From positions 1-34,667 of the forward strand of contig JAFLJX010000237.1 of the NCBI GenBank assembly GCA_022712785.1: 34,667 nucleotides of DNA, given 5' to 3'. The notes under the pieces are model-generated. The model worked only from the letters and a program-made list of their open reading frames with translations, was not told the origin of the DNA and searched no databases. Source of the stretch: Mycoplasmatota bacterium. GTDB taxonomy: Bacteria; Bacillota_I; Bacilli_A; Izemoplasmatales; Izemoplasmataceae. Positions 151-32,877 of this stretch are shown here, one piece after another (positions within the stretch are counted from its first letter, which is position 1; each line of letters begins with the position of its first letter). A program made the position numbers and the translations under genes.

Positions 151-353
151 TCATCCTTTCCAAAGATTAAATAAATTACCCAACCGAAGTTAACAACTAA
201 ACTTACTACTATCCAAATAATTTTGTTTCCACCTTTAACAACTCTTTCTTCCTTTAAGATATCTATAATCACGTAAATCTTAAAGAAAAGATCGATTATA
301 AAAAACGGTATGATTAATGGTAATAAATCAATTAAAAAGCTGAATTCTTCCAT
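147..353 (-). CDS. PLDc_N (phospholipase D-nuclease N-terminal)-like small membrane protein
   Basis: 68 aa, two hydrophobic segments with pattern ...[41 protein letters not shown]. Confidence 0.75.
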
Positions 354-362
354 GGTTGCCTC

Positions 363-828: not shown

Positions 829-1155
829 TTATTTAAATATTACTGCAGTACCATAAGCAATTATTTCAGCTGCTCCACCCATAACTGCTGAAGTTTGTAA
901 TCTTAATCCTACAACTCCGTTAGCTCCAAGTTCCTCTGCATCTTTTAATAATCTTTCTGTTGCTACTTTTCTAGCTTCGTTCATCATGTCAGTATATCCA
1001 ACGATTTCTCCACCAACTATACTTTTAAGTCCAGCCATAAAATCTCTACCTATATTTTTAGTTTGTACTGTTGATCCTTTAACGTATCCTAACACTTCAG
1101 AAACTGTTCTACCTGGCACTTCATTTATAGTATATAAGTCTTTTCTAGTAATCAT
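829..1155 (-). CDS. YbjQ family (heavy-metal-binding domain-like) protein
   Basis: 108 aa; VPGRTVSEVLGYVKGSTVQTKNIGRDFMAGLKSIVGGEIVGYTDMMNEAR...ADELGANGVVGLRLQTS is YbjQ-like. Confidence 0.9.
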   Translation of the reverse strand: MITRKDLYTINEVPGRTVSEVLGYVKGSTVQTKNIGRDFMAGLKSIVGGEIVGYTDMMNEARKVATERLLKDAEELGANGVVGLRLQTSAVMGGAAEIIAYGTAVIFK

Positions 1156-1296
1156 ATTATTCTCCTTTTAAAAATTAAAGTATATGAATTTTACAACATT
1201 ATTCATATCTAATTATATTATACATTGAAATAAGTATAAATTCAAACAAATTATTTTAAATTATTTTTCATAACCAAAAGATACCTTTAGATTAAA

Positions 1297-1320
1297 ATAA
1301 GACACGTACACGTGTCTTAT
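1297..1320 (-). terminator. Hairpin terminator after the GltD-like gene
   Basis: ATAAGACACG-TACA-CGTGTCTTAT, 10-bp perfect stem, T-rich on the minus-strand 3' side, directly after the stop at 1324. Confidence 0.7.
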
Positions 1321-1323
1321 TCC

Positions 1324-2265: not shown

Positions 2266-2419
2266 AGTTTCACCCTTTCAATTTGTAATTCACTAAATAT
2301 TACTGTAATTATATCATAAACTATTATACATATATAATATCTTAGTAATATATTTATCTTCAATACTATTTTAACACAAAATATGATTAGTTCGTGTAGA
2401 AATTATTTACTCTAAATAT

Positions 2420-8532: not shown

Positions 8533-11500
8533 TTATTTAAGTAAGTCTCTAATTTTTCTCATTTCTTTATTAGGATCAGTGTACCAATTGGAAGCAAACA
8601 CTCTATATATTATCCAATTTCTCGCGTTTAAATATTTTTCTTGATGTAGTAGATCTCTTCTTGAATTTGATACTTTAGATTCGTTTACATCACATATTAT
8701 ACCTAGTTTAAATGATGAAGTTTCTTCATCATAAATACCAATATTTATACTATCTGATCCTATACCAAGAGAGGTTTTAACATTATAGTTATTCTTAACA
8801 AGTCTTTTTTGAATGTCTAGTACTAAATCAGATAACACTTCTTGATCGACTAGTTCTTCACTTGAATGAAGTCTTGATAGAACTTCTTTTGCCATTTCTG
8901 GTTTATTGTTAGAAATAAAGTAACAATATCTCATATAGTCTTTTAATAGTTTTGGACCAGTACTTTTTAAGTCTTCAACTTTTAATTCTTCAGGATATAA
9001 AGAAGATACAAAGTATATCTTTTGTTTAGCTCTACTGATAGCTACATTTAGTCTGTTTTGTCCGCCATCGTTGTTAAGCCACCCAAATCTTCTTCTGACA
9101 AAACCTTCAGGATCTCTTGCATATCCCATTGAAAAGATAATAATGTCTCTTTCGTCACCCTGAACATTTTCAATATTCTTTACGAATAAACTAGTATCTT
9201 CAGAGTCATCTGTTCTAAACAATTCTTTTTCAAATTGCTTTTGATATACGCTTCTTTTAAATAGTTCTTCATCTATATAATTTTCAATCAAGTCTCTTTG
9301 AGTACTATTAAAGGTTATTACGCCTATTGTCTCATTATTTTCTCTTTCTCTAAATACTTTTTTAAGTAATTTAATAACTGCTTTAGCTTCTTCAATATTT
9401 CTTCTATTATCGAATATTCCATCTTTAACATGGATGTATTCAATAGGTGGTTTTTTACTATTATATTGATTAGGTGAAACTATTAATCTACCTTCATAAA
9501 ATGCATGATTTGAAAATGCGATTAATTCTTCATATTTAGATCTGTAGTGATAATTAAGAATAGTTTCATCAAATCTATAACGTGCTAAATCTAGTAAACT
9601 CCTAGCATCCATAGAAATGTCTTTTAATATTGCGTCTTCATAAAACTCATCATCATCTTCTAGTCTACCTATACCTAGATTTGAGGGACGTAATTGTTTT
9701 GTGTCACCTGCGATAACTACTTTTTTGGCTCGATAAATTGCGGGGATTCCTTTTTCTACGTACATTTGAGATGCTTCATCAAAAATCACTAAATCGAACA
9801 TACCATAAACTAAAGGTATAATTGCACTAACAACTTCTGGAGTCATCATCCATACTTTTATGTTGTTCATTAGTTCAAGTTGGAAGATATCTATAAATGC
9901 TTTAACGCTTATTTTTCGTCCGCTTTCTAGAATCCTTTTTATATCCATAATTCTTTTTGAATTTGAGAAGTTTAATGCATTTTTATATAATTCCATTTCG
10001 AATGATTCATTTGTAACATTTCTTTTCTCTTCTATTAGTTTATTTAGTTCATTTATTTTTTCTTGATACTTATCGAATATATATAAATGCTTTTGATTCT
10101 TAGCTTTTATATCTTCTAAATACCCAGTGAAAAAGGCATCAAATAGATAGTGACGATGTTTTGATATATCTTTTATATTTTTCAACATTTGGTGGTTTTG
10201 AAGCATGTCTAAAAACTGAATTTCTATTTTAGTAAGTTTCTCATACTTTGCTTTTTGTTTATTCAAATTTTTAATGTTTTTAACTACGAAGTTATGAAGA
10301 GTGCCATCATTTAGCAATAACTTCATATACTTAATATCTATGGATTTCTTCTTAGTAAAGAATAAAATTCTTTTTGTGTTTTTTTCCAAAAATACTTTTT
10401 TGAGTTTTCTTTTTTTAAAGAACCCTGCTTTATTTCTTTTTAACAGGTATAGTTCATAGTCTTTAGTGAATTCTTCAAACTCTATTTTGTTACTTCTACT
10501 AATTTTAGTTTCCAGTTTAGATATTAGAGGATATTCTTCTTTAATAGTTTTGAAGTTAAGATATTCATTTAAATGATTATATTTATCAAATGTTTTTTCA
10601 ATAGCGTTTAAATTCTTAAATACCGGTTTCCCAAACACTGATACAAACATGTGGTGTACTCTTTTAGGACTCAACTCATTAATTACATCTTTATCTTTTA
10701 CATATCTACTGTATAGTTTATGAATTGGAACATCTTGTATTGCTTGGTTATATAATAAGTCTAATGATACATCCATGTCGTGAAGAATATCTTTAATTTC
10801 TTCTTCTAATTTATAGATATCATTATTTAGTGTTCTTTGCGGAGGTAAGGGATTAATGAACTCTTTAAGTTTATGATAGAAATCTTGTTTATTTTCAGCG
10901 TCATCAATGAACATAGCATACTTAGATGTGTTTTTAAGCCTTGAATAGATAACATCTAAAGCAACTTTCTTCTCAGAAACCACTAATACGTTACCCCCCT
11001 TTAAAACGCTAGAAGCTATTAGACTAGTTATTGTCTGGCTTTTACCTGTCCCTGGTGGACCCCAAATTACAAGCTTTTGATTCTGATTTATTAAATCAAT
11101 AACTTTTTCTTGGGAATAGTTTAGTTCATTTATATAAGATAGTTTAGTTTCATCAACTTTACTTGTTGAATCGTTATATACTATGTCTTTTTCTTTAGAA
11201 TAAAGATCAGATTCATCAATTAGACCTTCTAATAGTTCATTATATTTACTTGAGTCTAAAATTAAACTCATATCCTTTTGAATCATTGAAGAATACAATT
11301 TGTATCTACCAACAGTAATATATTCTTTTATGTCAAATATTCCTTTTCTTCTTTTCATAAATACATCTTTTAAATCCTTCTTATATGGCTCGAAGGACAA
11401 ATCAACAGGAGTATCAATTATGTTTATACCATTCATTTGATAGAAAGGTATTACAACATCTTTTAATACTTTCTTGTTGAAAGAACCAAGGTATGGTGTA

Positions 11501-12249
11501 TTTGAGTCTATTTCATTTTTTTCCATTTTTGATGTGGCAAGTAATAAGTCTCTATTGTATATAATGTCTTTTGCTTTATCTTTAACAATACTAAAATCCT
11601 GTTTTTTCCTTACTAATCTTACGGGAAAATACAGTAGTGGTGCTTTAATTGAGAAGTTGTCCTTTTTGAAAACACCTTCTATATATGGGTAAGCTATATA
11701 AAAATCGTATGACCCAGTTTCTTTTTCATCTTTATTTGTTTCTCTAAAAAGAGTTGTAATGTGTCTTTCAAGTAACTCTCCTTTTGAAGTGTCTTCAAAT
11801 TTCAAATCAAGTTTTTTTACTTTGGTGTTAGTTAAGAATGATACAATATCAATATCTAAATTAAGAACCGCTAAATCAAAACTAACTCTTTTAGTAGTTT
11901 TACCCATATATAGATTAGGGTTTCTTCTTGAGATGTTAGTTAGTCTATCTTTATAGTGATCTAAAACTTTATAGGCATTTTTAGATACCTTAACTTCTTT
12001 TACAGAAGCATTTTGATGTTTGAATATAATTTTTAAGAATCTAGATGCATATTCATCCATGAATAGTTTTCCAATTCCAGAAATCGCTAAAAAATCACTT
12101 GTTTTAAGTGGTTTTTTTGTAGAAATCTCTTTAAGAACATTATCAGAACATATAAGTCGTGTTTTCCCTGTTCTTTCAAATACCTCTTGTCTTATTAAGT
12201 CTCTTAGTCCATCTAATTCGATAAGTAGTTTATTTTTTATAAGTGCCAT
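8533..12249 (-). CDS. Large SF1 DNA/RNA helicase: N-terminal HRDC-like and DUF4011-like regions, AAA_11/AAA_12 core, C-terminal MTES_1575/Vsr-like nuclease-fold domain
   Basis: LVIWGPPGTGKSQTI (Walker A), FDLVIFDEASQM (Walker B), VQGDERDIIIFSMGY...NRLNVAISRAKQKIYFVSS (motifs V/VI); C-terminal KLGIICDV...RNWIIYRVFASNWYTDP. Confidence 0.88.
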   Translation of the reverse strand: MALIKNKLLIELDGLRDLIRQEVFERTGKTRLICSDNVLKEISTKKPLKTSDFLAISGIGKLFMDEYASRFLKIIFKHQNASVKEVKVSKNAYKVLDHYKDRLTNISRRNPNLYMGKTTKRVSFDLAVLNLDIDIVSFLTNTKVKKLDLKFEDTSKGELLERHITTLFRETNKDEKETGSYDFYIAYPYIEGVFKKDNFSIKAPLLYFPVRLVRKKQDFSIVKDKAKDIIYNRDLLLATSKMEKNEIDSNTPYLGSFNKKVLKDVVIPFYQMNGINIIDTPVDLSFEPYKKDLKDVFMKRRKGIFDIKEYITVGRYKLYSSMIQKDMSLILDSSKYNELLEGLIDESDLYSKEKDIVYNDSTSKVDETKLSYINELNYSQEKVIDLINQNQKLVIWGPPGTGKSQTITSLIASSVLKGGNVLVVSEKKVALDVIYSRLKNTSKYAMFIDDAENKQDFYHKLKEFINPLPPQRTLNNDIYKLEEEIKDILHDMDVSLDLLYNQAIQDVPIHKLYSRYVKDKDVINELSPKRVHHMFVSVFGKPVFKNLNAIEKTFDKYNHLNEYLNFKTIKEEYPLISKLETKISRSNKIEFEEFTKDYELYLLKRNKAGFFKKRKLKKVFLEKNTKRILFFTKKKSIDIKYMKLLLNDGTLHNFVVKNIKNLNKQKAKYEKLTKIEIQFLDMLQNHQMLKNIKDISKHRHYLFDAFFTGYLEDIKAKNQKHLYIFDKYQEKINELNKLIEEKRNVTNESFEMELYKNALNFSNSKRIMDIKRILESGRKISVKAFIDIFQLELMNNIKVWMMTPEVVSAIIPLVYGMFDLVIFDEASQMYVEKGIPAIYRAKKVVIAGDTKQLRPSNLGIGRLEDDDEFYEDAILKDISMDARSLLDLARYRFDETILNYHYRSKYEELIAFSNHAFYEGRLIVSPNQYNSKKPPIEYIHVKDGIFDNRRNIEEAKAVIKLLKKVFRERENNETIGVITFNSTQRDLIENYIDEELFKRSVYQKQFEKELFRTDDSEDTSLFVKNIENVQGDERDIIIFSMGYARDPEGFVRRRFGWLNNDGGQNRLNVAISRAKQKIYFVSSLYPEELKVEDLKSTGPKLLKDYMRYCYFISNNKPEMAKEVLSRLHSSEELVDQEVLSDLVLDIQKRLVKNNYNVKTSLGIGSDSINIGIYDEETSSFKLGIICDVNESKVSNSRRDLLHQEKYLNARNWIIYRVFASNWYTDPNKEMRKIRDLLK

Positions 12250-15136: not shown

Positions 15137-16018
15137 TTAGTTAGTAAATTCCATAATGTAATTAGCAAGTGTATCAGGTAAATCAACTAATGGTGAGTGT
15201 CCAGAGTTTTTCAATACAATTTTTTTAGAATTAGTTATAGCTTCAATTGTTTCATCAACCATGTATTCTAAAACTACAGCATCGCTATCACCCCATAAAG
15301 ATAATACCGGACAAGTTACATCCTTAATTGTACCATCTCCTAAAGAGACACCATTTGAGAAATTAGACATATTGAATGTTGTTAATGCCCAATCTACATC
15401 AATTATATTTCGTTGTTTCATTGTTTCTGATAAATACAATTTGTTATCTTCTTCACTTGGTTTATTAACTGTGTATATAGCTTGATCCCAAATTGAATTC
15501 ATTATTTCTACACTATTAGTTTTGAAAATATTGTCCATAGGTTTTACTTGAACTGCATCTTCTGCTAATTCTTCAATACTGCTATAGAATTCACCGAGTT
15601 TTGGAGACCCATCATCATTCTTTTTATAGATTGGATATCCTCGGTATGAACAAGATTCAATCAAAATTAGCTTTTTTACTTGATCTTGTCTTTTTGATGC
15701 TATTTTCATACTTATAGCTCCGCCTGTACTCCAACCAGCTATATTGTATTTTTTAATGTTTAAAACATCTAGTAATTCACAGATATCATCTGAGAAATCT
15801 TCTAAACCTTTAATAGGGTTAATATATGATGAATCACCAAACCCTCTTAAGTCAGGTGCAATAACTCTATATTTGCGTCTAAGTCTTTCAATTAGCGGTT
15901 TAAAATGTAACCCACTACTCATGTTTCCATGAATTAAAACTAAAACTTCTTCTCTTGTACCTTTATCAATATAATGAATAGTTTCTCCATTACTTAATTT
16001 TAAATGTTTCTTATCCAT
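15137..16018 (-). CDS. Alpha/beta hydrolase
   Basis: HGNMSSG oxyanion region, GWSTGG nucleophile elbow, KNSGHSPLVDLP catalytic His. Confidence 0.9.
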   Translation of the reverse strand: MDKKHLKLSNGETIHYIDKGTREEVLVLIHGNMSSGLHFKPLIERLRRKYRVIAPDLRGFGDSSYINPIKGLEDFSDDICELLDVLNIKKYNIAGWSTGGAISMKIASKRQDQVKKLILIESCSYRGYPIYKKNDDGSPKLGEFYSSIEELAEDAVQVKPMDNIFKTNSVEIMNSIWDQAIYTVNKPSEEDNKLYLSETMKQRNIIDVDWALTTFNMSNFSNGVSLGDGTIKDVTCPVLSLWGDSDAVVLEYMVDETIEAITNSKKIVLKNSGHSPLVDLPDTLANYIMEFTN

Positions 16019-16029
16019 ATGTATTCCTC

Positions 16030-16860
16030 CTAAATAATTTTCGGTATATTTGTACTATTAATAAAACCAAGTATTATAGTTGTAAATAACTCAGGATCTT
16101 CGTACATAGATGCATGCCCTGCGTTAGGTAAATGTATTAATTTAGATCCTTTAATATTCTCATTCAAATACTTTTGTTCAAATGGTGGTGTTAAGAAATC
16201 ATATTCGCTACTTATAATAAGTGTATTTGCAGTAATAATATGTAATGAATTTGTAGTGTCATGTGTCTCAGCACTTTTTGTTAATCTAACCATTGAATCT
16301 AAGAATAATGGGTTACTAAATAATGGCACTAATATTTTTTTTCTTTCTTCCATCCATTCAATATTTTCTGTATAAAACTTTGGAGAATAAATGTAAGGAA
16401 TAGATATATTGTAGTACGCAAGTCCATTTCTAGATTCAGATACTTGATTCCATCCGTCTCCAATAGCTTTAAGCCAAGGACTAGTTTTAGCTACGCCATT
16501 AGCTAAAATTATTTTTTTAACTGTGGTTGGGTATTTAATACTGTATTTTAGTGCAATACTTGCTCCATAACTTATCCCTACCAAATTTACTTTTTCAAGT
16601 TTTAACTCGTTAATTAAACTGTTTAAAACTTCAACTTGTAGATCTAGTGTGTAGTTAGTATCAGATTTACTTGATTCACCTTGATCAACCATATCAAATC
16701 TAATCAAAGTATTGTTTTCACTAAGAGATTCTTTGAATATTTCCCAACTAAGAGTAGACATCATAATACCGTTTACTAAAATTATTATTTCTTTATCACT
16801 TTTTAAATCACCATCTACAACATATTTTATGTTAAAGTCATTGTGTTTTAAAAAACTCAT
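16030..16860 (-). CDS. Alpha/beta hydrolase
   Basis: GISYGAS nucleophile elbow, LPNAGHASMYEDPE catalytic His; 4-nt overlap with the upstream CoA-transferase gene. Confidence 0.9.
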   Translation of the reverse strand: MSFLKHNDFNIKYVVDGDLKSDKEIIILVNGIMMSTLSWEIFKESLSENNTLIRFDMVDQGESSKSDTNYTLDLQVEVLNSLINELKLEKVNLVGISYGASIALKYSIKYPTTVKKIILANGVAKTSPWLKAIGDGWNQVSESRNGLAYYNISIPYIYSPKFYTENIEWMEERKKILVPLFSNPLFLDSMVRLTKSAETHDTTNSLHIITANTLIISSEYDFLTPPFEQKYLNENIKGSKLIHLPNAGHASMYEDPELFTTIILGFINSTNIPKII

Positions 16861-18158
16861 TTAATATACCCGATTTCTAATGCTCTTTTTCTTAGTTCAT
16901 CTTTGAATTTAGGATGAGAAATACTAATTAATAATTCAACTCTTTCTTTTACGCTTGTTCCTCTTAATCTTACTGCACCATATTCAGTAACAATGTAGTC
17001 TACATCATTTCTTGATAAACTTACTCCTGCTCCTGGTTTTAAGAAAGGAACTATTTTACTGATTTCTTCTCTTATGCCAGTTTCTTTATTTCTAACATTA
17101 GCTGTTGAATATAACGCAATAAAGCTTCTACCATTTTTACTTCTTTGTGCACCTGTAGCTGTATCACTTTGTCCACCTGTACCACTAAACTGTACTGGAC
17201 CAATTGACTCACTGCAACACTGTCCTGTTAAATCTACTTCAATAGTAGTGTTTATCGATACTTGGTTATCGTTCTTCCCAATAACACAAGGATCATTAAC
17301 ATAATGTCCATCTAATATCATAATACTTGGGTTATCATCCATAAATTCATAGAGTTCTTTAGTCCCAAGTGCGAATGCCGCAACCATTTTTCCTGGATGC
17401 AATGTTTTCATACTATTATCAATTGCACCTGACTGTGCTAATTTCATTAATCCTGTGGTTAACATTTCAGTGTGAACACCTAAATGTTTTTTATCGCAAA
17501 GTGCAGCTGCAACAGCATTTGGGATTCCACCAATTCCTAATTGAAGAGAATCTCCATCATTAATTAGTTCCGCTATATGTTTTCCAATTAAAATATCTTT
17601 TTCATTTGGTTCAGTTTCAGGTAATACTGGTATATCATAGTCTACTTCAATAAAATAATCTATTAGACTTTCATGAACCTCTAAATCACCAAAAGTTCTT
17701 GGTAATTTGGGATTAATTTCTAAAATTACAGTTTTTGCTTTCGTAATCATTCCTTTTTCATATACATTTGACAATGATAATGAAACATATCCATGTTTAT
17801 CTGGTGGTGTGCAATTTCCAATATAGATGTCAGGAATTTTGTGTTCTAATCTTCTTACTCCAGCAAAGTTTAAATGATTTGGAATATAAGAGATATTTCC
17901 ATGTTTAAAAGCTTTTCTTAAGTCTCCACTAAAAAACCAACTATTGATAGTAAACTTTTCAGCTAAAGTCTCATCTAACATAAATTGATATTTTGATAAT
18001 GGTAAACAGTTATCAATTGTTACATGATCGATTTTATTCGCTATTTCATGTAAGTGAGCAAAAAACTCTCGTCCTTCACTTGCAGCCATACCGGCAACTA
18101 TGTAATCTTCATTTTTTACTAGGTTTAATGATTCTTGTAGTGTAATTAGTTTTGCCAT
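16857..18158 (-). CDS. Acetyl-CoA hydrolase/transferase family CoA-transferase (4-hydroxybutyrate/butyrate CoA-transferase-like)
   Basis: LQLGIGGIPNAVAAAL, INTTIEVDLTGQCCSESIG (catalytic Glu region), GTGGQSDTATGAQRSKNGRSFIALYSTA, TEYGAVRLRGTS. Confidence 0.9.
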   Translation of the reverse strand: MAKLITLQESLNLVKNEDYIVAGMAASEGREFFAHLHEIANKIDHVTIDNCLPLSKYQFMLDETLAEKFTINSWFFSGDLRKAFKHGNISYIPNHLNFAGVRRLEHKIPDIYIGNCTPPDKHGYVSLSLSNVYEKGMITKAKTVILEINPKLPRTFGDLEVHESLIDYFIEVDYDIPVLPETEPNEKDILIGKHIAELINDGDSLQLGIGGIPNAVAAALCDKKHLGVHTEMLTTGLMKLAQSGAIDNSMKTLHPGKMVAAFALGTKELYEFMDDNPSIMILDGHYVNDPCVIGKNDNQVSINTTIEVDLTGQCCSESIGPVQFSGTGGQSDTATGAQRSKNGRSFIALYSTANVRNKETGIREEISKIVPFLKPGAGVSLSRNDVDYIVTEYGAVRLRGTSVKERVELLISISHPKFKDELRKRALEIGYIK

Positions 18159-18238: not shown

Positions 18239-19465
18239 TTAGTTTCCTAAAATCTCATCAATTGGTTGAATAGGTCTTGTAACCACCCATGCATAAACTT
18301 CATCAGAACCTTCTAATTTAGTTAATGCCATAGATTGTGTACCAACTCTAGAACCATTTGAATAATCTAAGAATCCACCAAATGGATTTTGTATTGGAGC
18401 TGATTCCATTGCATCAATGAAATTTGGCCAAGTTAAATCATCTTCGCCAACTGCTTCTAATCCTGCAACAAAGAATGATGCAGCGATCCATCCAGTCATA
18501 GCATAAACGCTTGCTACATAATCAGGATTAAATTTAGTCATTTCTGCTACATATAAGTTATATGCTGCAGAGAAAGTAGTTCCATCTGCTTCAAAGAAAT
18601 CAACCCATGCACCTGCATAAACGTCAAATGATGGTAAAACATCTTTAACTAATGTACCAAATGATGGACTTGCATTTACATAAGAAGTAATACAATCAAC
18701 ATCACTACCTGCAAGTTGTAATGCTTTCATAGCAGTACCTGCACTTGATTGGTTAGCTGCAATAATGATAAAATCAACATCAGCTTCAACTATAGCTATT
18801 GCTGCTGCACTGTAATCTGAAGCTGCATATTCAACTTCTTGTACAACTAATTCAACACCTAAGTTAGTTGCTTCAATTTCAATACCTTGTAACATACTTG
18901 TTCCTGAATCATCATTTGAATAGATAACACCAATTTTAGCTGCATTAAAATCTCCAACAGCACGTGCAACCATTACTTGACCTTCAGCTGGATAAAGAGG
19001 TTGAACTGGGAATGAAGCTCTTTCGTTTCCAGTTGCTTCTTGGTTGAATAATGTCCCAACACCAGTAGCATAATAAACTCTAGGAATTCCAACTTCTTCT
19101 AAATATGATTCAGTAGCTCCAATAATAGGAGTTCCGAAATGTCCTACAAATGCAAATATTTCATCATCTTCAACTAATTTTTCTGCATAAGTAAGCCCTG
19201 TAGCTCCATTAAACTCATCATCATAATGAACAAATTCAATCATTCTACCATTTACTCCTCCATCGTTGTTAACCATTTCAAAATATGCTTCGATTCCCGC
19301 AACAAATGGTAAACCAACAAATGCTAACCCGCCAGATGTTGCAGCTGAGTTACCAACTAATACTGTTGTATCTGTGACACCTTGTGCTGATTCAGTTTCA
19401 TCTTTACATGCAGATAAAGTAAACACAGCAAATGCCAATGTCAATACTAATAATAATTTTTTCAT
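18239..19465 (-). CDS. ABC transporter substrate-binding lipoprotein, LivK/branched-chain amino acid-type
   Basis: Lipoprotein signal MKKLLLVLTLAFAVFTLSAC; periplasmic-binding fold type I pattern (VLVGNSAATSGGLAFVG..., VEDDEIFAFVGHFGTP). Start moved to MKK (GGAGG RBS). Confidence 0.9.
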   Translation of the reverse strand: MKKLLLVLTLAFAVFTLSACKDETESAQGVTDTTVLVGNSAATSGGLAFVGLPFVAGIEAYFEMVNNDGGVNGRMIEFVHYDDEFNGATGLTYAEKLVEDDEIFAFVGHFGTPIIGATESYLEEVGIPRVYYATGVGTLFNQEATGNERASFPVQPLYPAEGQVMVARAVGDFNAAKIGVIYSNDDSGTSMLQGIEIEATNLGVELVVQEVEYAASDYSAAAIAIVEADVDFIIIAANQSSAGTAMKALQLAGSDVDCITSYVNASPSFGTLVKDVLPSFDVYAGAWVDFFEADGTTFSAAYNLYVAEMTKFNPDYVASVYAMTGWIAASFFVAGLEAVGEDDLTWPNFIDAMESAPIQNPFGGFLDYSNGSRVGTQSMALTKLEGSDEVYAWVVTRPIQPIDEILGN

Positions 19466-19489
19466 AATTTCCTCCATTTTCTATTTTTT

Positions 19490-19520: not shown

Positions 19521-20354
19521 TTATTTACCTAAATACGCTTCTACTAATAATGGGTTATTCATCAACTCTTTTGATTCACCCTCCATTATTATTTCTCCGA
19601 CCTGTATAACATATACATAATCAGCAATCTTTAAAGTCTGTAGTGCATTTTGTTCCACTATTAAGACCGTAACTCCTTCTTTTTGAAACTCTTTAACAAT
19701 ATTAAATATATCTCTAACAATAAGTGGTGCAAGTCCTAAAGAAGGTTCATCAAGGACCAATAACTTAGGATCTGCCATCAATGCTCTTGAAATAGCTAGC
19801 ATTTGTTGTTCTCCACCTGATAAGGTATTTGCAATTTGTGATTCTCTTTCTCGAAGAACAGGGAAATACTTATACACTCTTTGTTTATTGTTATTAATTT
19901 TTTCTTTTCTTGTTAACATAATTTCTGGATCTTTACCTTCTAATCCAATTTTTGAATCATCAATTCTTTTTTGAATACTTTTTGTAATTACCTCTTTAAA
20001 TATCTTAGATAATTTAACTGGACCTTTTTTTAACTTGAAAGCTCCTATTCTTAAATTTTCCTCAACAGTTAAATCTGGGAAAACCTGTCTACCTTCAGGG
20101 CTTTGAATAATACCAGCAACAGCAATCTTTTCTACAGCTGTTTTAGTTATATCTTCACCTCTGAAAGTGATACTTCCTGTATCAGCTTTCATAAGACCTG
20201 AAATCTTTTTAAGCAATGTAGTTTTACCACCACCATTTGATCCAAGAATTGCTACAATACTTCCTTTTTTTACAGTGATATCTATTCCTCTTAAAGCCTT
20301 GATAGGACCATAACTAACACTTAAATCTTTTATTTCTAATAGGTTTTCAGCCAT
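19521..20354 (-). CDS. LivF-type ABC transporter ATP-binding protein
   Basis: GSNGGGKTTLLKKISGL, SPEGRQVFPDLTVEENLRIGAF, LSGGEQQMLAISRALM. Confidence 0.93.
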   Translation of the reverse strand: MAENLLEIKDLSVSYGPIKALRGIDITVKKGSIVAILGSNGGGKTTLLKKISGLMKADTGSITFRGEDITKTAVEKIAVAGIIQSPEGRQVFPDLTVEENLRIGAFKLKKGPVKLSKIFKEVITKSIQKRIDDSKIGLEGKDPEIMLTRKEKINNNKQRVYKYFPVLRERESQIANTLSGGEQQMLAISRALMADPKLLVLDEPSLGLAPLIVRDIFNIVKEFQKEGVTVLIVEQNALQTLKIADYVYVIQVGEIIMEGESKELMNNPLLVEAYLGK

Positions 20355-21184
20355 TATTCATCATCCCTTCCTAAGTAAGCTTCTTGTACATCGGGATGTC
20401 TTTTAATGTAGTCAGGAGTTCCTAAAGCTAGGAATTTACCAAAGTTTATAGCACAAATTCTATCACACACTCCCATAACAAATCCCATATCATGTTCTAC
20501 TAATAAGATTGAACATTTATAGTTTTCCTTAATTTGAATCATTAATTTTGATAACTCAGTTGTCTCTGTTTCGTTCAATCCGGCAGCTGGCTCATCTAAG
20601 ATAATTAATTTAGGATTACTCATTAAAGTTCTGGCGATACCTATCTTTTTTAATATTCCATAAGGTTGTCCAGCAACATATTGATCTTTAAGATAATCAA
20701 TTTTCATGAATTTTAAGATTTCTAAGGCTTTTGCTTTATAGAAAGTTTCTTCCTCGGATGCTCTTTTACTTCTAAATATATGACCTATGAAGTCAGATTT
20801 AAATAATGTGTGAGCGCCAATTAACAAGTTATCTATTACAGATAAATCCTTTATTAACTCAACATTTTGAAATGTTCTTACTAGTCCTTCTTTTATAATC
20901 TTTTCAACATGAATATCGTTTAAATTAATTATTTCGTTTTTCTTGTTATTAAATATAATTATACCATCTTTATCTTTATAGAATTGTGTTATACAGTTAA
21001 ATACTGTTGTTTTACCAGCACCATTTGGACCAATAAGTCCAAATATCTCATTTTCTTTTATATCAAAAGATAAATTATTTACTGCTGTTAATCCGCCAAA
21101 TCTCATTGATAAATTTTGAATATCTAATAATGTTCCAGGCTTTAGAACGTATGATTTATTAGTGTTATCACTCATCGCCATCAC
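20354..21184 (-). CDS. LivG-type ABC transporter ATP-binding protein
   Basis: [55 protein letters not shown]. Confidence 0.93.
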
Positions 21185-22262
21185 CTGCTTTTAATTTATT
21201 TTGTTTATGTATTTTATATTTATTATATAGTTTTTTGATATCATGAGTGACATGAATCATACCATATGGATAAAACATTACAACAACAATGATTAATATT
21301 CCTGAGAATAAATAAGCAACTCCACTTACGCTACTAAATAAATCTTCAAGATATAATTTAGGTATTCCATATATAATAAATACTCCTAAGAATGTCCCAA
21401 ATATTGATTTCATTCCTCCAACAACAACCATTGCTAGAATTAACAATGTTAACATTAAATTCCAATCAAGTGGTTGTACGTATCTATAGAATGATGCATA
21501 AAGTATCCCACCGATAGTTGCGTAAAGAATTGCAACAACAAAAGAGAATAATCTATATTTAGATATGCTAACACCCATTGCTTGAGCTGATGAGTTACTT
21601 CTACTCATAGCGAGCAGTGCTCTACCTGTTTTACTTTTGGTCAGATGGTACATAACAACCATCATTACTACCATGACGAAACTTAAAAAGATATATGTCA
21701 TATTTCTATCTAGTTCAATAAATCCCAACAATGTTGGATATTTATAGTGAACTCCACCATATGCATTTGTAAACCAAGTTACCCTTTTAAATATTTGACT
21801 AAATATTTCTCCAACTGCGAGTGTGGAAATTGCTAGATATACTCCCTCTACCTTTAAAGAGAATAATCCAACTGCAAGACCAATAAATGTTGCAATAACT
21901 ATTGTAATTAAACTAGATATTTCATATGGGAATCCTAAGGTTTCGAAATATACAACTCCGTAAGCTCCGAATCCTACAAAACCTGCAGTACCTAAACTCA
22001 TTAACCCTGAGAAACCTAGTAAAATATTAAGCCCTAAAGCAACGATTGTGAAAATTATGATATATGCATATAATGAAACTGTTGAGTAATTCATTATATC
22101 AAGCTCTGATAATAACAATATGACATTAAGTCCTACAAACAAATATACAAAACGTCTATACATAGCATCTGTTTTAACAGCTGAAACCATTCTTCTAAAT
22201 GAATCCTTTATATATATAGTTATTTTGTTAAAATAAGATAATACTTTTTTCATATTCATCAC
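21168..22262 (-). CDS. LivM-type ABC transporter permease
   Basis: GLNILLGFSGLMSLGTAGFVGFGAY and conserved EAA-type loop region; multi-TM. Confidence 0.93.
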   Translation of the reverse strand: MMNMKKVLSYFNKITIYIKDSFRRMVSAVKTDAMYRRFVYLFVGLNVILLLSELDIMNYSTVSLYAYIIIFTIVALGLNILLGFSGLMSLGTAGFVGFGAYGVVYFETLGFPYEISSLITIVIATFIGLAVGLFSLKVEGVYLAISTLAVGEIFSQIFKRVTWFTNAYGGVHYKYPTLLGFIELDRNMTYIFLSFVMVVMMVVMYHLTKSKTGRALLAMSRSNSSAQAMGVSISKYRLFSFVVAILYATIGGILYASFYRYVQPLDWNLMLTLLILAMVVVGGMKSIFGTFLGVFIIYGIPKLYLEDLFSSVSGVAYLFSGILIIVVVMFYPYGMIHVTHDIKKLYNKYKIHKQNKLKAGDGDE

Positions 22263-23156
22263 CTAGACCTTTCTAACAAGCTTCTTACCAATAATTCCAA
22301 CTGGTTTGAAGAATAAAAATACTAGGATAAGAACATATACTATTACTGTGCTCCAAACACTCCAAGTTGGTGGTAAATAATAAGCTGCCATATTACTAGA
22401 GAAAGCTATTATATAAGCTCCAATAACTGGCCCATAAAATGTTTGGAAACCTCCAAGCACACATGCAAAGAATGCACTAACTTGAATTGAACCCATCATA
22501 TTGATATCAACTTGTGTTTGAGGTGCAACAATAATCGCAGCAAGTGTTCCAAATGTTGCCGCTGTTGCCCAAGAAATCATTGTTACTGATTTTGTTGGTA
22601 CTCCCATAAGTCTTGATGTTATTTCATTTGATGCAGTAACTCTTATTGCGAGTCCCCAATCGGTAAATTGGATAAATAGGAACACTGCTCCCATTAATAA
22701 TAACGACATTCCTATAGTAAAGAATGAATTATAACCAATTGTTGCACCTAATATGGTAATAGTTGTAGTAGGACTATATGGAATGAATTGTGGTAAAGGT
22801 ATTGGTTCAACACCAAATAACCAAGGTATTATTCCTATAATAACTATAATCAATCCTAACGTAATTATCTGTTTACCTATGTTTCCAACTTTATTAGCCG
22901 GTCTAATAAATACTGTGTCTATAATAAATCCAGTAATTATTGCAGTAACCATAGCTGCAGGAACTACAGCCCATATAGACCATCCCCACTTCATTAATAA
23001 TGTGGCAGCAACAAATGCATTAAGAGTTCCAATTGAACCTTGTGCAAAGTTTGTTGTTTTAGATGTTCTATAAATTAATACTATCCCAAGTGAAGCAAGA
23101 GCAAATACACTTCCTGTTTCCAAACTTCTAAATAATAATTGTAGAAATACACTCAT
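22263..23156 (-). CDS. LivH-type ABC transporter permease
   Basis: GSVFALASLGIVLIYRTSKTTNFAQGSIGTLNAF; multi-TM. Confidence 0.93.
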   Translation of the reverse strand: MSVFLQLLFRSLETGSVFALASLGIVLIYRTSKTTNFAQGSIGTLNAFVAATLLMKWGWSIWAVVPAAMVTAIITGFIIDTVFIRPANKVGNIGKQIITLGLIIVIIGIIPWLFGVEPIPLPQFIPYSPTTTITILGATIGYNSFFTIGMSLLLMGAVFLFIQFTDWGLAIRVTASNEITSRLMGVPTKSVTMISWATAATFGTLAAIIVAPQTQVDINMMGSIQVSAFFACVLGGFQTFYGPVIGAYIIAFSSNMAAYYLPPTWSVWSTVIVYVLILVFLFFKPVGIIGKKLVRKV

Positions 23157-24176
23157 TTAGCCCCACCTCACTATACTAGATGCCCATACATATCCAATTC
23201 CAGCGGCTAGTAAACAAATATTATCGCCTTCTTTAATTGAGTTATTCTCATTTGCTAAATGCAAAGATAGTATTTGATCTATTTGGCCAATATGACCGTA
23301 TTCTTCTAAATAAATTGTTTGTTCATCTTTTAAATTCAGTTCATTCATCATTGCTTGATGACCAGATCTTTTAATATGTAGAATAGCTAGAAAATCTAAA
23401 TCTTTTCTTGCGATATGTGATTTTCTTAATGATTCATCTATACATTTTAACCAATTAGGAAAGCTTACTTTATTAAGTCTTTCTTTCATTTTTACAGGAT
23501 CTAATAATCTTAATGATTTATATGCTTCTTCAATATTGTCCTTAGTTATAGGATTACACGACCCACCAATTTCAACACCTGCAGTTCTTGCGAGTGTTCC
23601 ATCAGCCATAATATGTGAACCTAAAATTAAGTTTTTCGGATGGTTTTTGCGTAAAATCATTGCTCCACCACCAGCTGATAAATTAAACATCATTGACATG
23701 TTTTTATCTTTATAGTCAACAAAGTCACCATTTCTATAACCACCAGCAATCATAATTGTGTTTATATCAGGATCACTTATTAACATATCTTTTGCTATCT
23801 TTATTGCAGAAACAGTTGTACAACAACGATTTTGAAGATCTATACCCCATGCATTAGTTGCACCTATTTTACCTTGTACGTACAAAGCAGAAGTTGTCAG
23901 AGGATATTCTTTCCATTCTTCAGTAACTGACAACACTACATCAATTTCCAAAGGATCAACACCAGTATTTTTTAGGCAATCAATTGCGGCTAAATAAGAC
24001 ATTTCTTGAGATCCTTCTTCACTATTTGCAATTCTTTTTTGTTTTATCCCAAGTTTATCTATTACTGCTTCTTCAGTCCATACGCCCATTGTTTCAACTG
24101 AAATTTCTTTTGCTGTCATAATTTGTTTTGGTAAGTAAATCCCAGTCCCTACAATACCTACTGTTATTTGTGACAT
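23157..24176 (-). CDS. Ketoacyl-ACP synthase III (FabH)-like condensing/thiolase-fold enzyme
   Basis: KASIII-like GIVGTGIYLPKQIMTAKEI, WGIDLQNRCCTTVSAIKIA (Cys aligned to FabH nucleophile), FLAILHIKRSGH (His), YGHIGQ where FabH has YGNTS. Confidence 0.82.
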   Translation of the reverse strand: MSQITVGIVGTGIYLPKQIMTAKEISVETMGVWTEEAVIDKLGIKQKRIANSEEGSQEMSYLAAIDCLKNTGVDPLEIDVVLSVTEEWKEYPLTTSALYVQGKIGATNAWGIDLQNRCCTTVSAIKIAKDMLISDPDINTIMIAGGYRNGDFVDYKDKNMSMMFNLSAGGGAMILRKNHPKNLILGSHIMADGTLARTAGVEIGGSCNPITKDNIEEAYKSLRLLDPVKMKERLNKVSFPNWLKCIDESLRKSHIARKDLDFLAILHIKRSGHQAMMNELNLKDEQTIYLEEYGHIGQIDQILSLHLANENNSIKEGDNICLLAAGIGYVWASSIVRWG

Positions 24177-24207: not shown

Positions 24208-24927
24208 TTATAATCTCATTCCACCATTAACACTTAAAGTGTGCCCTGTAATATATGAAGACTCATTGCTAGCTAAGAATAAAGCTACATTTGCAATTTC
24301 TTCAGGTTGTCCTAATCTTTTTAACATTGTAAGAGCTGCAAATTTTTGTAATAACTCTTCAGGTATAGTTTTTAAAATATCTGTCATTACATATCCAGGA
24401 GCAATTGCATTACATCTTACTGGTACACCTTTTCTTGCGAATTCTTTTGCCCAAGTTTTAGTTAATCCTAATAACCCAGCTTTTGTAGCTGCGTAGTTTG
24501 CTTGTCCAATATTTCCATATTCTCCAACAACACTACTAATATTAATAATAGATCCTCCACCAATGTTTTCCATTTGTGGTCCAATGTGTCTAACTAAGTT
24601 AAATACACCTTTAAGATTAACATCTATTACTAAGTTCCATTGTTCATCAGTCATTTTTCTAGTCATTGAATCTCTAGTGATTCCTGCGTTATTAACTAAG
24701 ATATCAATTTGTCCATATTCTGCGACTATTTCATCAAAGAATTTTTTACATGCTTCTGAATCAGTAACATTTAATAAAGACCCTTTAACATTTTTATGAG
24801 TATAAGATAACTCTTGCATATCTGCAGAGATTACTTTTGCTCCTTGATTCGCAAAGCTTAAACATATTTCTTTACCTATTCCGTTTGCTCCGCCTGTAAC
24901 AACGGCAACTTTACCTTCTAATCTCAT
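24208..24927 (-). CDS. SDR-family 3-oxoacyl-ACP/acetoacetyl-CoA reductase (FabG/PhaB-like)
   Basis: VTGGANGIGKEICLSFA, NNAG, ISSVVGEYGNIGQANYAATKAG, APGYVMTDI. Confidence 0.92.
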   Translation of the reverse strand: MRLEGKVAVVTGGANGIGKEICLSFANQGAKVISADMQELSYTHKNVKGSLLNVTDSEACKKFFDEIVAEYGQIDILVNNAGITRDSMTRKMTDEQWNLVIDVNLKGVFNLVRHIGPQMENIGGGSIINISSVVGEYGNIGQANYAATKAGLLGLTKTWAKEFARKGVPVRCNAIAPGYVMTDILKTIPEELLQKFAALTMLKRLGQPEEIANVALFLASNESSYITGHTLSVNGGMRL

Positions 24928-24930
24928 TTT

Positions 24931-26142
24931 CTAAACCTCCATATTTTTAAGGATTACAGCAGTACCCATACCGCCACCGATACATAAAGTAGCTAATCCA
25001 AATTTTACTTTTCTTTTTATCATTTCATGAATTAATGTTGTTGTGATTCTGTTCCCGCTTGCTCCAACAGGATGTCCAAGTGCAATAGCTCCACCATTAA
25101 CATTAGATCTTTCTAAAATTTCTTCTTTTGATAAATCATGTTCTTCAACTAAAGAAGCAATAACACCTAAACTTTGTGCTGCAAATGCTTCATTAAGTTC
25201 CATTAATCCCATTTCACTTAATTTCATGTTTGAATATTTTAATGCGCTTCTAATTGCAGGTACAGGTCCAAGTCCCATTACACTAGGTTCAACTCCACCT
25301 TGTCCAATTCCAACAACTTCTACTAATGGTTTTAAACTATATTCTTTTAAAGCTTCTTCACTTACAACTAACATAAAGCTTCCACCATCATTAATACCAC
25401 TAGAATTTCCGGCAGTTACGCTTCCACCTTTTTTAAATGCAGGTCTTAAAGAACCTAATTTTTCTAATGTTGTTCTTCTATTTGGATATTCATCTGTATC
25501 AAAGACAACTTCATCTCTACGTGATTTAACTGTAATTGGAACAATCTCATCTTTGAATTTCCCAGCATCGATAGCCTCTATAGCTCTTCGTTGTGATTCA
25601 ATTGCAAATTCATCTTGTTCTTCTCTTGTTAATTCAAATTGATCTGCGATATTTTCTGCAGTTATTCCCATATGAACATTATCAAATGGATCAGTTAAAG
25701 CATCAGCAATCATATGATCAGTTACAGTAAATCCACCCATTTTATATCCTTGTCTAACTCTACCAGGAATGATGTTTGGTGCCATACTCATAGATTCTAC
25801 ACCACCAACAATTACCATATTATGTATATCGGCTTTAATTGAAGTAAAAGCAGTCATTATAGTTTTCATACCACTACCACATACCATGTTAATTCCATAT
25901 GCTGGTACACTTACAGGAATTCCTGCCTTAAGTGATACTTGTCTTGCAACACCTTGCCCCAACCCTGCAGGTAAAATATTACCAATTACAACTTCATCAA
26001 TCATTTCTTTTGGAATTTTTGTTTCTTCTAAAATGTTTTTAATTACTTCACTACCATAAACCGAAGGATGTACTGTGCTTAATCCTCCAAGAAAGCTTCC
26101 TATAGCTGTTCTTTTTGCTGAAACAATAAATACTCTACTCAT
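24931..26142 (-). CDS. Acetyl-CoA acetyltransferase (thiolase)
   Basis: VCGSGMKTIM (nucleophile Cys), NEAFAAQSLGVI, NVNGGAIALGHPVGASG, LCIGGGMGTAVIL. Confidence 0.95.
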   Translation of the reverse strand: MSRVFIVSAKRTAIGSFLGGLSTVHPSVYGSEVIKNILEETKIPKEMIDEVVIGNILPAGLGQGVARQVSLKAGIPVSVPAYGINMVCGSGMKTIMTAFTSIKADIHNMVIVGGVESMSMAPNIIPGRVRQGYKMGGFTVTDHMIADALTDPFDNVHMGITAENIADQFELTREEQDEFAIESQRRAIEAIDAGKFKDEIVPITVKSRRDEVVFDTDEYPNRRTTLEKLGSLRPAFKKGGSVTAGNSSGINDGGSFMLVVSEEALKEYSLKPLVEVVGIGQGGVEPSVMGLGPVPAIRSALKYSNMKLSEMGLMELNEAFAAQSLGVIASLVEEHDLSKEEILERSNVNGGAIALGHPVGASGNRITTTLIHEMIKRKVKFGLATLCIGGGMGTAVILKNMEV

Positions 26143-26257: not shown

Positions 26258-26271
26258 TGAACACTTGTTCA
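26258..26271. promoter_or_regulatory. Candidate TetR operator
   Basis: TGAACA-CT-TGTTCA perfect palindrome (6-bp arms) at the predicted +1 of the divergent thiolase operon. Confidence 0.65.
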
Positions 26272-26273
26272 GT

Positions 26274-26302
26274 ATTATAGCATAAAGCGTTTACATTGTC
26301 AA
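26274..26302 (-). promoter_or_regulatory. Consensus promoter of the thiolase operon, TTGACA-17-TATAAT, with a cre-like box in the spacer
   Basis: Minus strand TTGACA (26302-26297), 17-nt spacer, TATAAT (26279-26274); TGTAAACGCTTTAT (26282-26295) matches the cre consensus at 12/14. Confidence 0.85.
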
Positions 26303-26331: not shown

Positions 26332-26931
26332 ATGGACTATGAGATAAACATTCCAACATCACGTAATGGTAAAGCCACTTTCAAATTACTTCTTGAAACA
26401 AGTATTAAAGTTTTTTATGAAAAAGGGTACCATAATACAACAATAAAAGACATAACAAACGAGGCTGGAGTTGCTGCCGGCACCTTCTATTTATACTTTA
26501 AAAACAAATTTGTTTTGTATAAATATCTACTATTAGAAATACACCATGATATTAGGAGAACAATATCACAAAAAGTTGCTCTTGTAGAAGGTCGTTTTGA
26601 TAAAGAAAGAGAAGGTCTTAAGACTTTTATTCAATATACAATAAAGAATCCTCATTCTTATAATATTATATGGGAGTCTTTATATATTGATAAACAGTTA
26701 TTTATAGATTACTACTCTGGATTTGCAAAGAGATATGAAAAGGGATTAAATCAATCCATCGTTGATGGAGAATTACACAATGTTGATACTGAGTTAGTTT
26801 CGTATATACTTATGGGTGTTGCCAACTTTATCGGTTTAAAAGTTATATTAAACCTAGGATCAAATAACGAAGATATTGAATTAGTTGTTGATAATGTTAT
26901 GAAAATTATTAAAACGGGAATATTTAAATAA
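26332..26931 (+). CDS. TetR/AcrR-family transcriptional regulator
   Basis: FYEKGYHNTTIKDITNEAGVAAGTFYLYFKNKFVLYKYLL helix-turn-helix; AAAGGAG RBS; divergent from the thiolase operon. Confidence 0.93.
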   Translation: MDYEINIPTSRNGKATFKLLLETSIKVFYEKGYHNTTIKDITNEAGVAAGTFYLYFKNKFVLYKYLLLEIHHDIRRTISQKVALVEGRFDKEREGLKTFIQYTIKNPHSYNIIWESLYIDKQLFIDYYSGFAKRYEKGLNQSIVDGELHNVDTELVSYILMGVANFIGLKVILNLGSNNEDIELVVDNVMKIIKTGIFK

Positions 26932-28797: not shown

Positions 28798-29290
28798 TTA
28801 ATTAAAATTTGAAGTAGGAGCATTCTTGAACAATGTGGTAAAAATCAGTGACGAAAATGTTGTTTCATCTAAAGAAATAGTTGTCTCAAGAATATCAACC
28901 TCTGGTTCAACAACGGTTACTGTTCTTATAAGTTCTTGAATACTACCATTTATTGTTGTTGAGTATCTAATTTCATATACTCCTGTATTGCTTGGATCTA
29001 AATTACTTAAAACACTAACTTCAGCATCGGGATCGCCAGCTACATATGCTCCTGGATCTTCAAAAGTAGAATTAAGTTCTATTTCCATTTCAGCATTTCC
29101 ATTTAATATAAACATAACAATGCTACTTACTTTGCTATCTCCAAGATATAGTGTTTCTATAAGTGAATCAATTAATTCATCTTCATCATTAATTGAAACA
29201 GTAAAACCTAAACTATAACTACCATTTCCTACAACTTCAATGTTAACACCAAAGTCAGGAATTGCCTCACCCTCAATTATAATAAATCTT
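28798..29290 (-). pseudogene. Remnant of an Ig-like (DUF5011/HYR-type) surface protein
   Basis: Frame reads KRFIIIEGEAIPDFGVNIEVVGNGSYSLGFTVSINDEDELIDSLIETLYLGDSKVSSIVMFILNGNAEMEIELNSTFEDPGAYVAGDPDAEVSVLSNLDPSNTGVYEIRYSTTINGS...; no start codon at the real N-side, no signal peptide, internal ATG (29115) lies mid-domain, short out-of-frame coding-like piece upstream. Confidence 0.55.
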
Positions 29291-30726: not shown

Positions 30727-30857
30727 ATTTAAATCCAAATAAAAAACTACAGTATTGTTCATGAACTGCACCCTCTCTTTTTCATAGTTTCCTATGTCCA
30801 AGTTTATGGGTTCAGTGCATTCAGTTCACTGTAGTTTTTTATTTGGATTTAAATTTA
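30724..30857. repeat. Perfect 30-bp inverted repeat with 74-nt loop between convergent genes (terminator or MITE-like element)
   Basis: TAAATTTAAATCCAAATAAAAAACTACAGT (30724-30753) and its exact reverse complement (30828-30857); inner CATAG-TTTC-CTATG hairpin. Confidence 0.95.
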
Positions 30858-31787
30858 ATTATTATTACTAATATCAAAATATGCTTTAGCTAATTTAGCT
30901 CCAACTTTTGCGTTGTTATAAACTAACGCTAAATTCGCTATTAGACTTTTACCGTTTGTTCCTTCAACAATTGTTTTTAGTAAGTATGGTGTTACATCCT
31001 TACCCTCGATACCATCAATAAAACTTTGTTTAATCGCTTCGTCTATAATTCCGTTAATATAATCTGGATCTAAAGAATCTTCCTCTGGAATTGGATTAGC
31101 AACTAACACTCCACCTTTTAACTGAAGCTGGTCTTTTACATAAATCATTTCAGCTAGTTCTACTTCATCTTCAACAAAGTTTGTAAGTTTGATGTCAGAA
31201 GTTCTTGTGAAGAACGCTGGTAATACTTCTGTTTGATACCCCACAACTGGCACTCCATTTGTTTCTAAGTATTCCATTGTTCTTGGTAAATCTAGTATAG
31301 CTTTAGCTCCAGCGCAAATTACAGTTACATTTGTAAGAGCTAGCTCTTCTAAATCTGCGGATATATCAAGTGTATTTTCGAATCCTCTATGAACTCCACC
31401 AATTCCACCTGTTACAAAGAATTTAATTCCAGCCATTTCTGCACAAATCATTGTTGAAGCAACTGTTGTCGCTCCGAGAGATTTGTTTGCAACTATTTTT
31501 GCAACGTCACGTCTAGATACTTTTGCAACATAATCAGCTTTTGCTAATGTTTCTAAATCTTCATTTGATAATCCTATTTTGATTTTACCATCCATGATAG
31601 CGATAGTCGCAGGTACTGCTCCTTCTGCTCTGACAATTTCTTCAACTTTTTTTGCCATTTCCACGTTTTGTGGATATGGCATACCATGAGAAATTATTGT
31701 TGATTCTAGTGCAACTACTGGTTTGTTATTTTCTAGCGCTTCTTTAACCTCTTGTTTAATGTCTAAAAATCTTTTATATGTTTTCAT
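30855..31787 (-). CDS. psuG: Pseudouridine-5'-phosphate glycosidase
   Basis: PVVALESTIISHGMPYPQNVEMA, TIAIMDGKIKIGLS, SRRDVAKIVANKSLGATTVASTM, FVTGGIGGVHRG. Confidence 0.95.
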   Translation of the reverse strand: MKTYKRFLDIKQEVKEALENNKPVVALESTIISHGMPYPQNVEMAKKVEEIVRAEGAVPATIAIMDGKIKIGLSNEDLETLAKADYVAKVSRRDVAKIVANKSLGATTVASTMICAEMAGIKFFVTGGIGGVHRGFENTLDISADLEELALTNVTVICAGAKAILDLPRTMEYLETNGVPVVGYQTEVLPAFFTRTSDIKLTNFVEDEVELAEMIYVKDQLQLKGGVLVANPIPEEDSLDPDYINGIIDEAIKQSFIDGIEGKDVTPYLLKTIVEGTNGKSLIANLALVYNNAKVGAKLAKAYFDISNNN

Positions 31788-32877
31788 TTTTAGTTAACTC
31801 CCTTTTTATTAGGTTCATTGATAATTCTGGATTTACTGAATATGGTACTTGTATTGTTAAACTTGAGCTCATTGTTCCAATAATAACACTTTCTTTAAAA
31901 CTATGATCTGTGGTTAACGAGTAAATAAGTGCACTACTAAAAGAATCTCCAGCACCTGTAACATCAATGACTAAGTTATCTTCAACAACAAATGCATTTT
32001 GATGTTTTACTTGTTTTTTTTCACCATAATATGATCCAGCTGTTCCGGCAGTAACAACTGCTTTTTTAACGCCTTTTTCTAACCACATTTGACATAACTC
32101 TTCAACATTTTCATTATCTGTTTTGAAGTATGTTTGAGATTCATCTTTATTACATATAATGATATCGATACCTTTTATGTCTTTTGGAAGGTGTTTCATT
32201 TTTGGAGTTGATACTCCTATAATCCCAAGTGGTATATCTTCATTTCTAGTAAACTCTATTAATGATTCAACAGCTTCTTTTGAGATATTAAGATCTGCGA
32301 TAATCCACGAACTTAAATTCAAATGTCTTTTATGTTCTAATACCCAAGATCTGTCCATTGAACTGTTGATTGACATATCAGCATAACCAACATCCATATT
32401 CCCTTTTGGATTAATAATTGAATAGTATCCTCCAGTTGTTTTACCTTTCAATTTATCAACTGCGAATACTTCCATAAGTTTTTTAGATGACTGTATTAGA
32501 TTCTCGCCATATGCATCATCTCCAACTACGGACATGAGTGATACTTTACAATCGAGCCTCGCTAAGTTTTCAGCAACGTTTCTAATCACCCCACCAAATG
32601 ATGTATTAGAATTTATTGGATTTGATGTACCTAACTTCATTTCTTCTTCAAGTTTAAATGTATAATCAATATTAGCACTACCCACACACGTTATATATCT
32701 ATCCTGGCTTAGAACATACGGTTTACCTAAAATATGTCCCTTGTTTTGAAGACTTGATATAAGATTAGCAACAGCTGGTCTAGAAATTTCTAATATCTGA
32801 GCAATGTCTTTTTGACTGATATAAGGATTATCTTCTAAAATCTTTAATAACTTTTTTTCATTTCTATTAAGGTCCAT
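31774..32877 (-). CDS. Winged-HTH plus PfkB-family carbohydrate kinase (pseudouridine kinase-like)
   Basis: N-terminal LLKILEDNPYISQKDIAQILEISRPAVANLISSLQNKGHI (HTH), C-terminal VIDVTGAGDSFSSALIYSL (PfkB); overlaps psuG. Confidence 0.9.
   Translation of the reverse strand: MDLNRNEKKLLKILEDNPYISQKDIAQILEISRPAVANLISSLQNKGHILGKPYVLSQDRYITCVGSANIDYTFKLEEEMKLGTSNPINSNTSFGGVIRNVAENLARLDCKVSLMSVVGDDAYGENLIQSSKKLMEVFAVDKLKGKTTGGYYSIINPKGNMDVGYADMSINSSMDRSWVLEHKRHLNLSSWIIADLNISKEAVESLIEFTRNEDIPLGIIGVSTPKMKHLPKDIKGIDIIICNKDESQTYFKTDNENVEELCQMWLEKGVKKAVVTAGTAGSYYGEKKQVKHQNAFVVEDNLVIDVTGAGDSFSSALIYSLTTDHSFKESVIIGTMSSSLTIQVPYSVNPELSMNLIKRELTKNENI

Follow-up and report, generated by a model that had tools for sequence, protein, structure and literature searches.

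The window, a 34,667-nucleotide stretch of DNA, carries a reverse-strand operon in which the gene for a KASIII-like protein, here called KAS3L, lies between thiolase and SDR genes on one side and the genes of a liv-type ABC importer, a CoA-transferase and two alpha/beta hydrolases on the other (Table 1). The hydrolase encoded by the last of these genes also matches the PHB depolymerase structure 8ynv (E 8e-67). Fold neighbours of the importer's binding lipoprotein are 4n03 (“fatty acid ABC transporter substrate-binding protein”) and then many amino-acid and aromatic-acid binders, which appears compatible with a hydroxyacid ester substrate but is not specific to one. As the original prediction had it, the operon contains no acyl carrier protein (ACP) gene: none of the ORFs is one, and the gaps between genes leave no room for it; the ACP genes of the host sit on other contigs. 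Elsewhere in the window, a short ORF at 28798-29115 apparently encodes a fragment, stray or truncated, of an immunoglobulin-like cell-surface protein, and an indigoidine-synthase-A-like gene beside a PfkB kinase with an N-terminal HTH (30855-32877) resembles a pseudouridine breakdown pair.

Table 1. Features of the KAS3L operon and its control region in the window, and genes beside a second operator copy on host contig C222 (locus L109).
Feature	Coordinates	Strand	Remarks
Divergent TetR-family regulator	26332..26931	+	
Cre-like site TGTAAACGCTTT	26284..26295	-	Between divergent tetR and thiolase gene
TetR-type operator TGAACACTTGTTCA	26258..26271	.	Between divergent tetR and thiolase gene
Thiolase (acetyl-CoA acyltransferase)	24931..26142	-	First operon gene; TIGR01930 447 bits, cut-off 240
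SDR, FabG/acetoacetyl-CoA-reductase-like	24208..24927	-	Directly upstream of KAS3L
KASIII-like protein KAS3L	23157..24176	-	339 aa, open ORF
KAS3L residues			Cys118, His267, His295, Glu87, Lys89, HIKRSGH 267-273, Asp300-Gln301
livH-type ABC permease	22263..23156	-	Begins one base past the KAS3L stop
livM-type ABC permease	21168..22262	-	
livG-type ATPase	20354..21184	-	
livF-type ATPase	19521..20354	-	
Importer substrate-binding lipoprotein (livJ)	18239..19477	-	Nearest solved fold 4n03
CoA-transferase, butyryl-/4-hydroxybutyrate kind	16857..18158	-	TIGR03948 284 bits, under equivalog cut-off 675; 3eh7 E 2e-93
Alpha/beta hydrolase	16030..16860	-	
Alpha/beta hydrolase, intracellular short-chain PHA depolymerase family	15137..16018	-	NF050089 356 bits, cut-off 300
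C222 alpha/beta hydrolase	2-445	-	
C222 acyl-CoA dehydrogenase	923-2056	+	
C222 putative etfB	2069-2860	+	Read from sequence
C222 putative etfA	2857-3849	+	Read from sequence

KAS3L has the KASIII fold, with Cys118, His267 and, on the position of the FabH Asn, His295. Pfam assigns it KASIII domains only (PF08545, 48 bits; PF08541, 67 bits; both above cut-offs), and hhalign aligns the family profile with that of FabH at 100% probability (E 4e-43), setting YGH on YGN. The original prediction had placed the nucleophile Cys region of FabH at DLQNRCC and its His region at AILHIKR, which start at residues 113 and 264, and this is confirmed by hhalign, which pairs Cys118, the first Cys of RCC, with FabH Cys112 and, after realignment, His267 with FabH His244; without realignment the path is off by one residue, at His267 only. 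Its placement of a His codon at the FabH Asn also holds: codon 23292-23294 (read 23294-23292) translates as His295 within EEYGHIGQIDQ, and both hhalign and phmmer against PDB FabH entries (2ebd, 4nhd, 4dfe) pair the His of EEYGH with the FabH Asn. His295 thus corresponds to FabH Asn274, and the Cys-His-Asn triad of FabH is replaced by one with His. An AlphaFold model of KAS3L is of fair quality (pLDDT 77); it is unreliable in the Glu87 loop, where residues 88-93 fall below pLDDT 50, and at residues 149-166. A fold search with this model found FabH/KASIII enzymes as the nearest solved structures, and CerJ, ChlB3, OleA and BioZ also appear. The KAS3L profile gave no match and no usable alignment to E. 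coli FabF in hhalign, nor a usable alignment to the thiolase encoded in the same window. Thiolases have a second catalytic Cys in a C-terminal CxG loop; the C-terminal loop of KAS3L reads AAGIGYVW and contains no Cys. His295 is presumably equivalent to the GH histidine of FabF or thiolases.

All 74 KAS3L relatives covering the His295 column carry His there, with Cys118 and His267 likewise invariant, whereas every FabH and HMG-CoA synthase row of a mixed alignment reads GN. The second KASIII of the host genome is a FabH with Asn, whose gene shares its contig with acpP and acetyl-CoA carboxylase genes; KAS3L is a different protein from this housekeeping FabH. Given the His in all members, the Asn of the host FabH and the GN of the FabH and HMG-CoA synthase rows, the exchange is not due to chance, and His295 is a family trait common to wall-less bacteria and haloarchaea, not a one-off mutation. 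Identity to KAS3L is about 62-78% for the bacterial relatives and ~33% for the plasmid-borne haloarchaeal ones (five haloarchaeal loci examined). Forty-five residues are conserved across the bacterial and archaeal members, among them E87, K89, R148, D151, K269, R270, S271, H273, D300 and Q301, none of which is present in the host FabH; C118, H267 and H295 are fixed across both domains as well. In a tree, the bacterial and archaeal proteins form one clade (99/100 support) on a long stem of 2.18 changes per column, apart from FabH and HMG-CoA synthase. The YGH motif, raised in the original prediction as a possible family mark, therefore does mark a family outside FabH.

This family already has a name in NCBIfam, where it falls under NF005308 / PRK06840 (“3-oxoacyl-ACP synthase”). 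KAS3L matches the model over its full length at 457 bits and a haloarchaeal member at 412 (cut-off 315), and all 26 aligned family members match it. The cut-off is exceeded by KAS3L in 40 of the 61 genomes searched, and in one of 14 control genomes. A literature search found no paper naming the family and no published test of its named function. Residues, genomic context and taxonomic spread all argue against the label, and fatty-acid synthase is probably the wrong description.

The operon gene set is conserved in about 25 Acholeplasmatales and related loci, and in a few relatives the CoA-transferase and hydrolase genes are placed between KAS3L and the importer. Among the bacteria with the operon are the cultured Peloplasma aerotolerans M4Ah and Paracholeplasma vituli. 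The SDR gene lies directly upstream of KAS3L in 66 of the 74 loci with enough flanking sequence. Downstream, 66 of 71 loci have a liv permease gene in the same orientation, and the loci with no liv match have only ~1.5 kb of flank. Both the CoA-transferase and the depolymerase homologue are found at every locus with at least 10 kb of downstream sequence (13/13). In haloarchaea, KAS3L comes immediately after liv permeases at four of five loci (the permeases are not annotated at the fifth), and four of the five have an AMP-dependent acyl-CoA ligase, a hydrolase and a MaoC-type dehydratase within about 13 kb; neither a thiolase nor an SDR gene is adjacent at the haloarchaeal loci. Since the liv linkage holds in both domains, KAS3L and the importer form the shared core. 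In Halobaculum marinum (L083), the stretch that separates KAS3L from the ABC ATPase genes (9543-12158), and that holds two liv permeases in other haloarchaea, has no annotated gene; a second KAS3L copy is present on the H. marinum plasmid. An ACP domain was not found in Haloferax volcanii, the haloarchaeal control, which is not among the 11 genomes with an ACP match.

The divergent tetR is present at most relatives' loci. The gap between it and the thiolase gene contains the operator inverted repeat TGAA(T/C)N4(A/G)TTCA at 23 of 23 loci (0.1 expected from shuffles) and the cre-like motif TGWAAMCGCTTT at 19 of 23 (0.01 expected); judged by its consensus, the latter is probably a CcpA site. A stricter operator pattern has only one other intergenic copy in the host genome, at 687-700 of L109 (contig C222), between the alpha/beta hydrolase gene and the acyl-CoA dehydrogenase gene that is followed by putative etfB and etfA. 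This second copy ties the regulon to short-chain acyl-CoA metabolism and suggests that the KAS3L operon and the C222 genes may be one regulon. Operator-like matches on contigs C180 and C265 lie inside coding genes and were treated as chance. Among relatives, one genome (L122, G044, around 1501) has the operator pattern ahead of an acyl-CoA dehydrogenase region that shares 64% identity with that of the host, and another (L125, G156, around 1501) has it ahead of a second livHM pair.

The gene content would fit an operon that takes up short 3-hydroxyacid esters and breaks them down in CoA-linked steps, with (oligo-)3-hydroxybutyrate as the simplest and leading candidate substrate, given the CoA-transferase, SDR and thiolase; the MaoC dehydratase of the haloarchaeal loci would also fit an (R)-3-hydroxyacyl-CoA. 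This substrate reading draws on one depolymerase homologue and on the general kind of the CoA-transferase and SDR. A role in mobilising the cell's own PHA was rejected, as no PhaC_N domain, and thus no PHA synthase of the classes that carry it, was found in any of 61 genomes. Without such a synthase the cell would make no granule for the depolymerase homologue to attack; the homologue's location beside an importer points to imported esters. Matches to PF10503, the domain of extracellular PHB esterases, are scattered over 6 of 41 genomes, and most are weak. Ralstonia PhaZ1 is reported to thiolyse PHB to 3HB-CoA (PMC3430594), so it is reasonable on chemical grounds that hydroxyacid units could enter by thiolysis. 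A literature search returned nothing direct on the KAS3L family, its operon or a link between Acholeplasmatales and 3-hydroxybutyrate.

Reading from residues and gene context, we tentatively favour a CoA-dependent, non-decarboxylative acyl transfer or thiolysis as the reaction of KAS3L. Under TetR and probably CcpA control, the operon would import short 3-hydroxyacid esters or oligomers and hydrolyse them, after which the CoA-transferase would load the acids on CoA, the SDR oxidise them and the thiolase cleave the product. KAS3L, with its Cys-His-His centre (Cys118, His267, His295) and invariant Glu87, would not start fatty acids; an acyl group would be taken onto Cys118 and passed to or from CoA with no decarboxylation, and His295 would have the role that the GH histidine plays in thiolases and in KAS I/II. 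The enzyme might convert imported ester units to acyl-CoA on entry, by thiolysis or transacylation, or it might perform a thiolase-like retro-Claisen step. We infer the substrate, the use of CoA, and the direction and type of the reaction alike. A reaction other than that of FabH is argued for by the catabolic operon, its regulation, the haloarchaeal occurrence and the family-specific charged residues (Glu87, Lys89, HxKRSxH and DQ), as well as by the lack of ACP in both the operon and the haloarchaeal control genome. Against the favoured reading, the operon makes biochemical sense with KAS3L left out, so that context does not dictate the KAS3L step; the two hydrolases and the thiolase already cover ester and C-C cleavage; the surrounding haloarchaeal pathway differs in lacking an adjacent thiolase and SDR; and, as to substrate, the importer binding protein fits many carboxylates. 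A bolder form of the favoured reading, to which we would give only a modest chance, is that KAS3L founds a functionally new class of the KASIII fold, Cys-His-His(-Glu), CoA-dependent, non-decarboxylative and coupled to a Liv-type importer in wall-less bacteria and haloarchaea; it might, for instance, thiolyse imported oligo-3-hydroxyalkanoate esters directly to acyl-CoA.

The original prediction of a different reaction on a CoA substrate is supported in part: a CoA-linked setting is likely, and the case for a different reaction comes from operon, regulation, haloarchaea and charged residues. Its argument that His in place of Asn in itself implies a non-decarboxylative reaction fails, because the KAS I/II enzymes FabB and FabF condense decarboxylatively with a second His that is the structural equivalent of FabH Asn274. 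Their triads are Cys163-His298-His333 and Cys163-His303-His340 (PMC10054515), so the Cys-His-His centre of KAS3L is compatible with decarboxylation. A decarboxylating ketosynthase of this type, with malonyl-CoA or else an imported acid of the beta-keto or malonate kind as its substrate, would also agree with the NCBIfam family name; however, that name rests on similarity and went unmentioned in the literature searched, the operon is of a carbon-catabolite type and has genes for neither ACP nor a malonyl-transferase, and members exist in haloarchaea, whose control genome lacks ACP, making this reading unlikely. An ordinary FabH paralogue starting fatty acids, with the Asn-to-His exchange tolerated, is barely credible: fold and about 22-25% identity are shared with FabH, but the FabH models score KAS3L at roughly half of their cut-offs or lower (TIGR00747, 125 bits against 292; NF006829, 128 against 249), the clade is separate, a normal FabH is present in the host and the surrounding genes are catabolic.

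Chemistry like that of HMG-CoA synthase or OleA is a further alternative. The Glu of the HMG-CoA synthase TES motif is catalytic, and MAFFT pairs it with Glu87, which is invariant in bacterial and archaeal KAS3L and absent from FabH. This residue or a neighbour could be a general base deprotonating a second acyl-CoA, with a C-C bond made or broken between two CoA-derived acyl groups; weak matches to archaeal-type HMG-CoA synthase models are seen in 26 of 26 members, and OleA gives a precedent, named in a title that PMC7064751 cites, of a non-decarboxylative Claisen reaction on the KASIII fold. However, hhalign pairs the TES Glu with Glu86, a one-residue disagreement that realignment leaves in place, and position 86 is Ser in the archaeal members; the Glu87 loop belongs to the stretches modelled with least confidence; and the HMG-CoA synthase models score far under cut-off (TIGR00748, 38 bits against 353; TIGR01835, 19 against 360; NF003274, 53 against 244). 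On balance we regard this alternative as doubtful. Transfer from an acyl-Cys to a non-CoA acceptor, either phosphate or an alcohol as in the CerJ and ChlB3 acyltransferases, appears highly improbable. CerJ and ChlB3 are structural neighbours, and 21 of 26 members have a weak match to NF040746 (glycine/sarcosine/betaine reductase component C beta, GrdC; best E 9e-8), GrdC being part of a complex that releases acetyl phosphate. The FabH matches are much stronger than the GrdC match, no glycine-reductase genes are nearby and the operon suggests no acceptor.

Taken together, KAS3L represents a real and well conserved family with a clear genomic setting that is probably mislabelled, its residues, context and spread indicating that a family listed as a fatty-acid synthase is probably something else. 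For annotation this matters in that the PRK06840 label suggests malonyl-ACP chemistry in archaea. Should KAS3L work with no decarboxylation, the KASIII fold would have gained another active-site layout, and small-genome anaerobes and haloarchaea a means of living on short esters of hydroxyacids, for example products of PHB breakdown, of which we found no report.

Compared with known systems, KAS3L shares with FabH the fold, the nucleophile Cys, the His at the PHQAN position and the YG motif. Unlike FabH, it has an invariant His for Asn, extra Glu and Lys residues, the HxKRSxH motif and a clade of its own, and its gene has no ACP or acc neighbours. The Cys-His-His centre is common to KAS3L and the KAS I/II enzymes FabB and FabF, but the sequence family differs, Pfam giving KAS3L no beta-ketoacyl synthase N or C domain. 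HMG-CoA synthase resembles KAS3L in its Cys and His, possibly in an active-site Glu and weakly in N-terminal sequence, but it keeps GN where KAS3L has GH, and model scores and clade set the two apart. OleA, CerJ, ChlB3 and BioZ are precedents for KASIII folds with other acyl chemistry, a likeness that comes from the fold search and not from a close sequence relation. KAS3L does belong to the named family NF005308 / PRK06840, but that name asserts a function that its residues and gene context argue against.
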